Source of the DNA: a virus
Reading direction: 5' to 3' (one strand)
Length of the DNA stretch: 42,949 nucleotides
IMG/VR virus record: IMGVR_UViG_3300049032_000028
Span: 1-42,949 of that record
Positions 13,312-24,258 of this stretch are shown here, piece after piece. The position numbers and the translations under genes were made by a program. The notes under the pieces are model-generated. The model did not search any database, was not told the DNA's origin, and saw only the letters and a program-made list of their open reading frames with translations. The first letter of the stretch is position 1. Each line of letters starts with the position of its first letter.

Positions 13312-13505
13312 CCTACAAATACGCCGGCCCCGAAGCCTGGGCAGGGCCACGCCAACAACTCGTATTCGACCCAACTAAATGCGGCACCCGCAAAGGCTAC
13401 CGACAACACCAAAACCACGGCACACCCACCTGCCAACAATGCCGCCAAGCCCACAACGAATACATGAACCAACGCAACGCCACACTCAAAGGAGTCGCAG
13501 CATGA
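13308..13505 (+). CDS. Small zinc-finger protein of actinophage type
   Basis: 65 residues. CGTRKGYRQHQNHGTPTCQQ and CRQAHNEYMNQRN make the recurring CGTRxGY...H...C..CR.A...Y pattern of small actinophage proteins thought to be zinc-binding, possibly HNH-derived. No catalytic set is complete. It precedes the methyltransferase with an ATGA overlap. Confidence 0.75.
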   Translation: MTYKYAGPEAWAGPRQQLVFDPTKCGTRKGYRQHQNHGTPTCQQCRQAHNEYMNQRNATLKGVAA

Positions 13506-15094
13506 GGGCCGGTGAGCTTTGCGCAGGCTACGGCGGACTAGCCCTGGCTGTCGAAGAAGTGTTCGGCGCCGAAACAGCGTGGTTTAGCGAATTTGACCCC
13601 GCACCGTCCAAGATCCTCGCCCACCACTGGCCCAAGGTTCCCAACCACGGAGACATGACCCAGATTGACTGGGCAGCTATCGAACCCGTAGACATCATCA
13701 GCGGCGGAACACCATGCCAGGATCTCAGTGCGGCCGGGAAGCGCAAAGGCATGACCGAAGGAACGCGGTCCAACTTATGGGTCAACATGCGCGAAGCAAT
13801 CGCAACTATCAGACCTAAGTATGTGGTCTGGGAAAACGTAAGGGGGGCCTACAGTGCCGAAGCCAGTAGCGATTTGGAGTTCTGCCCGGGATGTATGGGA
13901 GAAGCCGCAGACGGAGGGGTTGTTCTGCGAGCACTTGGCCGTGTACTCGGAGACCTTTCCGACCTCGGGTATGACTGTCAATGGCGTGGCATACGAGCTG
14001 CCGACGTGGGAGCCCCGCACGGACGATTCCGGGTCTTTGTCCTTGCCTCTCTTCCGGACTCCATGCGCAGCAGAAGCAGTAGGAGGTCGGAGGAACCCCG
14101 ATCGGCGAGGCGCCACTATGCGGTTATCGGATCAGGTACGCGAGGAAGCTGGGCGAGGACTGCTCTTGCCAACCCCAAAGGCGTCCGACGGAGAGAAGGG
14201 TGGGCCCAACCAGCGGGGCAGCTCGGGGGATTACATGCTTCCATCGGCGGTGATCCATCTGCTGCCGACGCCGAGTGCGTGTGTAGCGAACGACGGAGAG
14301 TCAACGGTGACGTGGTTAGAGCGCCGCGAACGCGTGAAGCTGGCAGCCGCGAACGGCAACGGAATGGGAATGCCCTTGACAATAGCAAGCCTCCTAATTC
14401 AGGAGGCACAACTGCCGGGTCAGACGGATATATCGGAGGTGTTGTAAATGGCGGTACCAGCAAAGCGGGACCCAAAGAAGGACTGCAAAGCCTGCGGGAA
14501 GCCCCTGGAGCGAAAACGATACGGGAATCGATTGGAGGACCGAACGAGGTTCTTGGCGCGGGAACACTGCGACCAGACATGCGCGAACAGTCGGGCTGCG
14601 ATTCAAGCCGACTCTCACCGCTGGAGGGCGCGTCAGATCAAACAGCGGGAGCAGTGCTCGACGTGTTCCACAACGACGAGCTTGCACGTCCATCACAAGG
14701 ACAGGAACCCGGCAAGCAACCAGTCCGAGAACCTGGAAGTGCTGTGCGCGAGCTGCCATCTCAAGCTGCATTGGTCGGAGGATCGGGAGAATCGCCTCGA
14801 AGCGAAACTAACTGGGGACCGTATGAACCAGCTATTAGGCGCTGGGAAATGGTCCTCGGTCGTCAAGCGCCGCCGCCTACCGAAGCAACCGGACGGAATG
14901 GCGGGCATCGCCTAAGCCCTCGTTTTACAGAGTTCATGATGGGCCTACCTGATGGATGGGTGACCGATCCAGCCATTGGAATCAGCCGCAACGAACAGCT
15001 AAAGGCCTGCGGAAACGGTGTCGTACCACAGCAAGCAACCGCAGCCCTGCAAGACATGCTTGCAGGCTTCCAGAATCAGGGGAAAGCAGCATGA
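13502..15094 (+). CDS. C5-cytosine DNA methyltransferase with a long open insert
   Basis: 530 residues from ATG 13502. It transfers a methyl group from SAM to cytosine, probably protecting phage DNA from restriction. Motif I is LCAGYGGLALAVEEV, motif IV has Cys72 (GGTPCQDLSAAGK), motif VI is ENV (111-113), motif VIII is GRFRVFVLA (about 174-182), and motif X is near the C-terminus (RNEQLKACGNGVVPQQA). Conserved sequence resumes at WGPYEPAIRRWE (about residue 438). The 250 residues between look low in complexity and overlap two +1-frame genes, one an HNH endonuclease. A longer start at 13379 would cross the preceding gene and is rejected. Confidence 0.88.
   Translation: MRAGELCAGYGGLALAVEEVFGAETAWFSEFDPAPSKILAHHWPKVPNHGDMTQIDWAAIEPVDIISGGTPCQDLSAAGKRKGMTEGTRSNLWVNMREAIATIRPKYVVWENVRGAYSAEASSDLEFCPGCMGEAADGGVVLRALGRVLGDLSDLGYDCQWRGIRAADVGAPHGRFRVFVLASLPDSMRSRSSRRSEEPRSARRHYAVIGSGTRGSWARTALANPKGVRRREGWAQPAGQLGGLHASIGGDPSAADAECVCSERRRVNGDVVRAPRTREAGSRERQRNGNALDNSKPPNSGGTTAGSDGYIGGVVNGGTSKAGPKEGLQSLREAPGAKTIRESIGGPNEVLGAGTLRPDMREQSGCDSSRLSPLEGASDQTAGAVLDVFHNDELARPSQGQEPGKQPVREPGSAVRELPSQAALVGGSGESPRSETNWGPYEPAIRRWEMVLGRQAPPPTEATGRNGGHRLSPRFTEFMMGLPDGWVTDPAIGISRNEQLKACGNGVVPQQATAALQDMLAGFQNQGKAA
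13854..14447 (+). CDS. Overlapping +1-frame protein inside the methyltransferase gene
   Basis: 197 residues from GTG 13854, with AAGGGGGG 6 bases upstream. The translation has sequence patterns I recall from proteins encoded at actinophage cytosine methylase loci: YSETFPTSGMTVNG, AYELPTWEPRTDDSG, LPLFRTP, and LLPTPKASDG followed by GPNQRGSSGDYMLPSAV. Between 13854 and about 14050 the same DNA also encodes methyltransferase motif VIII in the other frame. It may be a target-recognition or accessory polypeptide, the real continuation of the methyltransferase by frameshift, or a conserved shadow. Its stop abuts the HNH start in the same frame. Confidence 0.6.
   Translation: MPKPVAIWSSARDVWEKPQTEGLFCEHLAVYSETFPTSGMTVNGVAYELPTWEPRTDDSGSLSLPLFRTPCAAEAVGGRRNPDRRGATMRLSDQVREEAGRGLLLPTPKASDGEKGGPNQRGSSGDYMLPSAVIHLLPTPSACVANDGESTVTWLERRERVKLAAANGNGMGMPLTIASLLIQEAQLPGQTDISEVL
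14448..14915 (+). CDS. HNH endonuclease nested in the methyltransferase gene
   Basis: 155 residues from ATG 14448, with GGAGGT 7 bases upstream. The HNH fold is clear: an N-terminal CKACGKPLERK / CDQTC zinc site, then CSTCSTT, LHVHHKDRNPASNQSENL and LCASCH (His-His with the Asn and C-terminal CxxC). Such genes usually act as homing endonucleases that cut alleles lacking them. It lies entirely within the open methyltransferase frame but in the +1 frame, and its last 35 or so codons reuse DNA encoding the conserved methyltransferase C-terminus. It is likely an insertion at the variable linker. Confidence 0.85.
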   Translation: MAVPAKRDPKKDCKACGKPLERKRYGNRLEDRTRFLAREHCDQTCANSRAAIQADSHRWRARQIKQREQCSTCSTTTSLHVHHKDRNPASNQSENLEVLCASCHLKLHWSEDRENRLEAKLTGDRMNQLLGAGKWSSVVKRRRLPKQPDGMAGIA

Positions 15095-22750: not shown

Positions 22751-22936
22751 ATGAGCGAACAAGCAGGCGGAATCAGCTTCGCAAGCGCCCTCGGACTAGT
22801 GTTCATCGTCCTCAAACTGACCGGCGTAATCGCATGGTCATGGTGGTGGGTACTCGCCCCGTTCTGGATCCCCCTCGCAATCGGCATCATCTTCATCCTG
22901 GTCCTCCTGATTATCGACTGGACGGACGGACGATGA
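22751..22936 (+). CDS. Small membrane protein
   Basis: 61 residues from ATG 22751 (AAGGAG 7 bases upstream; the ATG at 22733 is less likely). Two hydrophobic helices (ALGLVFIVLKLTGVIAW and WVLAPFWIPLAIGIIFILVL) leave a short polar end. This type commonly sits near the start of actinophage packaging modules; function is unknown. ATGA overlap with the phosphoesterase. Confidence 0.78.
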   Translation: MSEQAGGISFASALGLVFIVLKLTGVIAWSWWWVLAPFWIPLAIGIIFILVLLIIDWTDGR

Positions 22937-24258
22937 GCCGATGCAAGTTCGCCGCCGAATACGGCGCCGCAATCCCCACATGGGACAACCTCAGCTCACG
23001 CGAAACCGCACGACTCACCGGCTACTCCAAATCAGCCATCAACGCACACCGCGCAGCAACATGCCGATGCGCCAAAGACCTCGCTGACGTGCCGCGACTC
23101 ATCAACACAGGCGAATCGGAACAGCACAACCCAGACGGGTCAAGCTCATACGTGCGCATCTCCGACGCCGCATGGGGCTATGAGGACTACCGAAAGTTCA
23201 TCCGCAGTGTTGGGCAAGACCCCGATAAGGTCACCTTCACATGGGGTTGGACATCAAACCCTGCCGGTGGTTTCTGGAACAAACTCAACAACGTCCGCCC
23301 CATCACTGACGGCAAAGATGGCGAACCCGCATGGCCTGTTATTCAGCAAGCCGCACCCGTTCGCGTTGCGCTCAAAGCAACACCGGTCAAACCGCCACGG
23401 GAGATGAAACTGGCGCTCAAAGGCGCTGACACCCAGATCGGTTACCGGCAACTGCCTGACGGCACAATGGACCCATTCCACGATGACGCAGCCATGGAAT
23501 GCTTCGTGCAAGCAGCTCTGCAATACCAGCCTGACAAGATCCAGATCCTTGGCGACTTCCTAGACCTCGCAAGTCAGGGCCGGTTCGCGCAAGAAGCAGC
23601 GTTCGCTAACACCACACAAGCAGCTTTGGACGCTGGTCACGCGTTCCTCGCTAAGCTTCGCGCCGCCGCACCTGACGCCCAGATCATTGTGATCGAAGGA
23701 AACCATGACAAGCGGATGCAGAACTTCATTGAAGCCAACGCAGTTGCAGCCTTTGGGCTCAAACGTGCCGGCCTCCCGAAGTCCTGGCCTGTCATGTCAC
23801 TGCCCTACCTGCTGCGCCTGGACGAGCTGAATATCCAATACGTTGACGCCTACCCAGCAGCAACCGACTGGGATAACGACTCAACCCGCAACATCCACGG
23901 CACCAAAGCCAATAGCAGGGGCTCCACCACAGCCCAGTACGTGCACGAACACCCGCACCTCAACACGTGGGCAGGTCACACTCACCGAACCGAAATCACC
24001 TACCACAGTGTTATCGGCCCCCGCGGTGAACCCATCGAATCGTACTCCGCTAACCCCGGCTGCCTCTGCCGCACAGACGGTTCAGTGCCCAGCGTTCACG
24101 GCGCCATCTCATCCGATGGTAGGCCTGCGCGCATAGTCGAGAACTGGCAGCAAGGGTTCGGCATGGCCTACTACAACGACACCCAGTCGTGGCCGTTCGT
24201 GTACCGCATCCGTGACGGTGTCGCACTCATGGGTGGCATGGAACTAACGGCAGCGTAA
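22933..24258 (+). CDS. Calcineurin-like metallophosphoesterase with HTH N-terminus
   Basis: 441 residues. A helix-turn-helix-like N-terminus (SRETARLTGYSKSAINAH) with CRCAKD is followed, after a linker, by a metallophosphoesterase domain: a weak first motif ADTQIGY near 160, GDFLD at about 207, GNHDKR at about 256 and GHTHRTE at about 348. These residues bind two metals and cleave phosphodiesters of nucleotides or DNA. Similar proteins occur in actinophages just before the terminase genes. Role unknown. The usual first-motif His appears to be Gln. Confidence 0.83.
   Translation: MSRCKFAAEYGAAIPTWDNLSSRETARLTGYSKSAINAHRAATCRCAKDLADVPRLINTGESEQHNPDGSSSYVRISDAAWGYEDYRKFIRSVGQDPDKVTFTWGWTSNPAGGFWNKLNNVRPITDGKDGEPAWPVIQQAAPVRVALKATPVKPPREMKLALKGADTQIGYRQLPDGTMDPFHDDAAMECFVQAALQYQPDKIQILGDFLDLASQGRFAQEAAFANTTQAALDAGHAFLAKLRAAAPDAQIIVIEGNHDKRMQNFIEANAVAAFGLKRAGLPKSWPVMSLPYLLRLDELNIQYVDAYPAATDWDNDSTRNIHGTKANSRGSTTAQYVHEHPHLNTWAGHTHRTEITYHSVIGPRGEPIESYSANPGCLCRTDGSVPSVHGAISSDGRPARIVENWQQGFGMAYYNDTQSWPFVYRIRDGVALMGGMELTAA

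Follow-up and report, generated by a model that had tools for sequence, protein, structure and literature searches.

The methyltransferase locus described here is best explained as encoding a C5-cytosine methyltransferase (C5-MTase) made of two polypeptides from overlapping genes, alpha in frame 0 and beta in the +1 frame, with an HNH endonuclease gene inserted in the +1 frame. We give this reading a probability of roughly 0.8. The window, i.e. the whole stretch of DNA that was analysed, is a 42,949-base virus record (IMG/VR record IMGVR_UViG_3300049032_000028, positions 1 to 42,949). Its gene content is that of a temperate siphophage, including an integrase, a RecE-like nuclease, an SSB, a replication initiator, a terminase and a tape measure protein. 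The nearest phage DNA at the MTase locus is found in Arthrobacter phages, such as MidnightRain and Jinkies. Elsewhere in the window, upstream of the terminase, positions 22834-24258 encode a 474-aa metallo-phosphoesterase (phrog_20266, E=7e-139).

In the proposed enzyme, alpha (frame 0) would form the large catalytic domain. Beta would be translated from its own ribosome-binding site and GTG start codon inside the alpha gene, and would bring an N-terminal domain (p1) followed by LPTP repeats, which lie where a target-recognition domain (TRD) would be, making it the candidate recognition subunit. We infer that alpha and beta assemble into one methylating enzyme. The module containing motifs IX and X appears attachable to either chain: it is split in most distant relatives, lies entirely in beta in some actinophages and entirely in alpha in the window. 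The HNH protein is a presumed homing element that would target C5-MTase genes just before motif IX/X. As it occupies the +1 frame and leaves frame 0 open, its insertion would lengthen the alpha chain and not break it.

Long, deeply conserved overlaps between genes on the same strand are rare and often taken for annotation errors. The overlap described here is long, deeply conserved and present in every relative found, and it passes independent tests. Natural controls exist as well: the C-terminal module of the enzyme is found in one frame or the other, and some single-chain forms have lost the overlap. The arrangement points to a likely function for PHROG 1008 and may explain the overlapping pairs in which phage 'DNA methylase' genes are annotated. 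It also opens overprinting, the splitting of subunits and frame-transparent gene invasion to tests in laboratory mycobacteriophages and Arthrobacter phages.

Layout of the locus and the alpha frame

All features of the locus lie on the plus strand. The open reading frames and coordinates given in a preliminary description of this DNA proved exact: a 530-codon frame 0 (alpha, 13502-15094), a 197-aa ORF in the +1 frame that starts with GTG (beta, 13854-14447) and, abutting it in the same frame, a 155-aa HNH endonuclease ORF with an ATG start (14448-14915). The beta stop is directly followed by the HNH start (TAA, then ATG), and the ribosome-binding site of the HNH ORF, GGAGGT (14435-14440), is located within the tail of beta. 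Segment by segment, 13502-13853 and 14916-15094 encode the MTase only, and two proteins are encoded from 13854 to about 14048. From about 14049 to 14447 the coding frame is that of beta, and from 14448 to 14812 that of the HNH protein, with frame 0 serving as a linker in both. At 14813-14915 the MTase is the coding layer and the HNH tail is passive.

Alpha has the composition of a C5-MTase: motifs I-VIII come first, and an open linker separates them from motifs IX-X. Pfam PF00145 matches its residues 1-189 (E=2.4e-35), TIGR00675 also matches the protein, and GGTPCQD, ENVRG and APHGRFRVF are found in frame 0, placing motifs I, IV (PCQ), VI (ENV) and VIII in order in a single chain. The C-terminal module (14813-15061) consists of WGPYEPAIRRWE, motif IX (RLSPRFTEFMMGLPDGW) and motif X (QLKACGNGVVPQQ), and is detected in frame 0 by our ct profile at 146 bits. 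Among the PHROG families, phrog_363 covers alpha residues 1-519, and phrog_1008 and phrog_10223 match the C-terminal part. In the Pfam and PHROG profile searches, every MTase motif of the window is intact. By its motifs, alpha is thus a C5-cytosine MTase, for which site-specific cytosine methylation is predicted.

The beta protein

Beta homologs are found by tblastn in 369 phage records, mainly from phages of Mycobacterium, Arthrobacter and Gordonia. The N-terminal domain of beta, p1 (SETFPTSGM..NG), shares its DNA with the part of alpha that runs from just past motif VI through motif VIII, and the LPTP repeats come after it, at the TRD position. PHROG 1008 ('DNA methyltransferase') matches both beta (positions 76-208, E=1.3e-19) and the frame-0 C-terminal module (positions 215-324), indicating that these two parts form one protein in other phages. 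As this profile unites it with motif IX/X, the 197-aa ORF is to be counted as part of the MTase, a link that the preliminary description did not make. Searches of Pfam and NCBIfam returned no family for beta, and a comparison with PDB sequences matched no solved structure. AlphaFold2 models beta alone poorly (pLDDT 62, pTM 0.28). For a single-chain homolog (L118), the core is modeled well and resembles M.HhaI in Foldseek (an HhaI-like core), and the LPTP region has very low confidence. Given these poor models, the recognition role proposed for beta is drawn from position, and the structure predictions neither support nor refute it.

Two further loci (L241 and L264) encode beta-like proteins in the +1 frame with a different N-terminal domain (FSRMFMGTSLWASTKC..), followed by WPTP repeats and motif IX; these may represent a second beta subfamily. 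In a Leptospira plasmid (p2, L296), Salmonella phage S9-5 (L297) and a Rhodoplanes plasmid (L299), the beta ORF is present and unannotated within genes labeled 'DNA cytosine methyltransferase'.

Dual constraint in the first overlap

The segment in which the motif VIII region of alpha (frame 0) and p1 of beta (+1) share DNA (13857-14048) is constrained in both frames. When the alpha protein was kept and its synonymous codons were shuffled in 115 loci, the p1 score fell from 95 to 28 bits, and 1.2 stops per sequence appeared in the +1 frame, where 1 was seen in all 115. The reverse shuffle, which keeps beta, lowered the MTase-tail score from 100 to 24 bits in the same number of loci. As codon shuffles take no account of phylogeny, they are complemented by a comparison in which each sequence pair is its own control, inside versus outside the overlap. 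For pairs with 70-80% identity, the difference at alpha fourfold-degenerate sites is 0.61 outside the overlap and 0.32 within it, and it has this direction in 273 of 276 pairs; fourfold-site divergence about halves from the +1 start on. A codon alignment likewise shows the third-position rate dropping at the beta start, from about 0.6 to 0.34-0.50. Between the window and its nearest relatives, fourfold-site differences are 0.50-0.74 outside and 0.09-0.33 inside the overlap, and identity in the +1 frame is 0.68-0.81 inside and 0.39-0.57 outside.

Codon choice in alpha also bears the mark of beta translation. A Shine-Dalgarno-like sequence, AAGGGGGG (13840-13847), lies within the ENVRG codons, which are skewed over 82 loci: the Arg codon of ENVR is AGA or AGG in 65% of them, versus 13% elsewhere (P=4e-27), and the Gly codon at the beta ribosome-binding site is GGA or GGG in 77% versus 32% elsewhere. 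The Ser codon that creates the GTG start of beta is AGT in 73%, versus 6% elsewhere (P=3.5e-53). On these comparisons, the first overlap is truly dual-coding, and the codons forming the ribosome-binding site and GTG of beta are under selection. Two earlier arguments are thereby borne out, namely that the overlap with motif VIII encodes two meaningful proteins (in our analysis, from 13854 to about 14048) and that the ribosome-binding sites speak against a shadow ORF. Two checks proposed at that time also gave clear answers: synonymous rates are strongly reduced in the overlap and not normal, and relatives keep the +1 frame open.

A shadow, in which one layer (the +1 ORF) is a by-product of MTase codons, would be expected to arise readily in GC-rich DNA, which favours long spurious ORFs. 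In the window taken by itself, the absence of +1 stops given frame 0 is indeed weak evidence (1.9 expected, 0 seen, P=0.11), and the case therefore rests on the comparison with relatives. There, the codon shuffles, the third-position rate, the fourfold sites and the selected start and ribosome-binding codons all contradict a shadow, as does the LPTP region, where the +1 frame and not frame 0 has the coding pattern. Moreover, beta carries MTase motifs in loci of types II and III (defined below). We regard this explanation of the +1 ORF as having a negligible chance of being correct. The suggestion that one layer is a shadow nevertheless holds for other parts of the locus, i.e. for frame 0 between about 14049 and 14812, which is a stop-free linker, and for the HNH tail at 14813-14915; it fails for the first overlap.

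Conservation of the frame relation

The +1 relation between the two genes is constant. In all 124 loci found with beta (80 viral and 44 genome loci), p1 lies in the +1 frame of the MTase N domain, and the same is true for 100 of 100 more distant loci, from environmental viruses, a Paenibacillus phage, a Salmonella phage, Leptospira and Rhodoplanes plasmids. A query with the MTase only recovers 50 loci with p1, which is in the +1 frame in all of them; p1 is missing mostly from distant MTases, with about 39% identity or less, and also from L118 and the similar L158. Judged from these homologs, the overlap arrangement is conserved across hundreds of phages. In two Microbacterium loci (L213 and L214), MTase motifs I-VI share their frame with p1 and motif VIII is in another frame; these are probably a frameshifted or decaying copy.

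Motifs IX and X move between the frames

The position of motifs IX and X varies, and distinguishes three types of overlapping loci. In type III, alpha keeps motifs I-VIII and motif X, and motif IX resides in beta; 97 of the 100 distant loci have this division, which is close to the small-domain/large-domain division of C5-MTases. Frame-0 stops across beta number 1 in these 97 loci, compared to 4.1 expected per locus. In actinophages, motifs IX and X are adjacent and move together between frames. Both are in frame 0 in type I (118 mapped loci, including the window) and in the +1 frame with beta in type II (39 mapped loci, e.g. Orcanus gp40/41 and Andrew gp43/44).

These types are reflected in the LPTP-repeat part of beta (14049-14447 in the window), where stop counts and third-position variation indicate that the +1 frame is coding and frame 0 merely stop-free. 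Frame-0 stops occur here at 0.13/kb in type I and at 18.9/kb in type II. As IX-X lies in frame 0 in the window, frame 0 must stay open across the LPTP region as a linker: when the beta amino acids of the window are kept and the codons shuffled, 9.8 frame-0 stops are expected in 13854-14444 and 0 are seen. The most variable position in this region of the window is the third position of the +1 frame, and a search for frame-0 conservation in it found an open frame and no conservation.

Before the +1 stop, 240 LPTP repeats are in the +1 frame and 4 in frame 0; after it, 121 are in frame 0 and 6 in +1. This change of frame, seen in many loci, together with the Shine-Dalgarno-like sequence upstream of beta, could be read as a single MTase polypeptide made by ribosomal frameshifting between frames 0 and +1, in which case the +1 ORFs would not be independent genes. 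Of 118 type I loci, however, only 1 has a -1 slippery heptamer ahead of the +1 stop. The codon giving rise to the GTG is selected, and what follows the +1 stop in the window is an ATG and no LPTP repeat. Furthermore, near-identical phages of types I and II differ by a one-base indel in the DNA itself: DLane (type I, L004) and Ovechkin (type II, L007) are set apart by one inserted base in this region. We therefore consider frameshifting very improbable, and the earlier proposal that the MTase uses it finds no support in the slippery-heptamer count or in the selected GTG start. The DLane/Ovechkin difference falls in a G run (GCGGGG versus GTGGGGG, at about locus position 2230; the phages are about 97% identical here), which is a possible phase-variable site.

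Single-chain forms show where the repeats belong. In L118 and L158, LPTP repeats lie between motifs VIII and IX in frame 0, and p1 has been lost (its score is no better than that of shuffled sequence). In this layout, the repeats occupy the site where an ordinary C5-MTase has its recognition domain. It also bears on whether beta could instead have a regulatory or counter-defence role of its own, sharing DNA with the MTase but acting outside the enzyme. The window offers some grounds for this idea, as its alpha has motifs I-X by itself, so that an enzyme built in this way might in principle do without beta, and no solved structure matches beta. Against it, beta was never found without the MTase among the loci examined, type II and III betas carry the IX or IX-X that is missing from alpha, and the LPTP repeats occur inside single-chain MTases. 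A separate protein is therefore unlikely, though it is the least unlikely of the alternatives that we considered, and we favor beta as a part of the methyltransferase.

Relation to known two-polypeptide methyltransferases

C5-MTases of two polypeptides are already known as a kind, and the window encodes a variant of it. The beta chain of M.EcoHK31I is reportedly likewise encoded in an alternative frame within alpha. The window shares this plan, as its second MTase polypeptide is encoded in another frame inside the alpha gene. In M.EcoHK31I (Lee, Kam and Shaw 1995, summarised in PMC3404938), the large polypeptide has motifs I-VIII and X and the small one motif IX, with the predicted TRD placed in the larger subunit. 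Compared by motif division, this is the split of 97 of the 100 distant loci (type III). The window differs in having IX-X in alpha, with beta consisting of p1 and LPTP repeats only, and in that recognition is proposed here for beta; it is therefore a variant and not a strict member. M.AquI, with motifs I-VIII in alpha and IX-X in beta (PMC3404938), matches the motif division of type II loci; the window is not divided so. In current annotation, PHROG 363 covers frame 0 and PHROG 1008 covers beta plus the C-terminal module. Both are named 'DNA methyltransferase', and the overlap and the subunit relation are absent from the annotation.

The HNH insertion

The HNH ORF (phrog_1271, E=1.7e-12) sits in the +1 frame between the LPTP part of beta and the C-terminal module. 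Its nearest relative, in a mycobacterial locus (L028), has the same site and frame; the insertion is present at this one site in the window and L028 and absent from close relatives such as L003. In a Staphylococcus phage, another relative precedes motif IX of an ordinary, monomeric C5-MTase and uses its +1 frame. Among the 18 best viral HNH relatives examined, 17 are nested in a C5-MTase whose own frame stays open. Judged by this recurrent position, the HNH is a separate, later insertion, not recognized as such in the preliminary description, that is found repeatedly just before motif IX/X of C5-MTase genes. The HNH relatives at L348-L369 and L346 are almost all within C5-MTase genes, in +1 relative to the frame with motif IX/X, and that host frame has no stops. 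In L355 and L362, it is the beta frame that acts as host.

The insertion might instead have destroyed the MTase, leaving the open frames as remnants of a decaying locus. It does come between the LPTP region of beta and the C-terminal module, and it gives alpha a long stretch that is not conserved, the linker with the HNH insertion being about 250 residues. But host-frame stops number 0 over the 18 HNH-bearing loci, where 111 are expected, and the MTase motifs of the window are all intact. In the HNH part of the window itself, synonymous shuffling predicts 7.3 frame-0 stops, and 0 are seen (P=0.0004). Decay is thus an unlikely account, slightly more so than a separate beta protein. We think it somewhat probable that this is a widespread MTase family in which the catalytic and the recognition gene always overlap and IX-X hops between frames by small indels, giving at least four chain topologies of one enzyme, and that an HNH family adapted to the +1 frame of C5-MTase genes has come to avoid stops in the host frame, allowing invasion without splicing.

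The HNH tail covers the beginning of the C-terminal module (14813-14915), ending at a +1 stop about 102 nt into it. Several uninvaded type I relatives end beta at this stop, and the HNH tail is probably read from former beta sequence. We looked for dual constraint in this second overlap using fourfold sites and found none, with a difference of 0.60 under the HNH tail versus 0.63 in the rest of the module. The overlap of the HNH tail with the MTase C-terminus therefore exists as previously described, but as a passive one, and 14800-14915, put forward for a test of synonymous constraint, carries no extra constraint.

An HNH ORF hidden out-of-frame in a phage methylase, with an open host frame, has been described as the ShiLan domain (PMC11855218). 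According to that report, the authors detected no intron or intein, and no ribosome-binding site is given. Compared by description, the window HNH is alike in lying in another frame of a methylase whose host frame has no stops; it differs from the domain so described in being a 155-aa ORF with an ATG start and a GGAGGT. The ShiLan methylase belongs to a phage cluster (F1) shared with DLane, whose gp65 is apparently of the same gene family. Measured against the published description, the HNH family found here is wider than the ShiLan domain, and the portions consulted of that paper and of its predecessor make no mention of the beta overlap in the methylase.

A different HNH insertion is found in Gordonia phage Ailee and its relatives (L009, L059 and L069). 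It lies upstream of p1 and ends just before beta, with frame 0 open, and the deposited annotation of these loci gives the MTase as a two-piece join.
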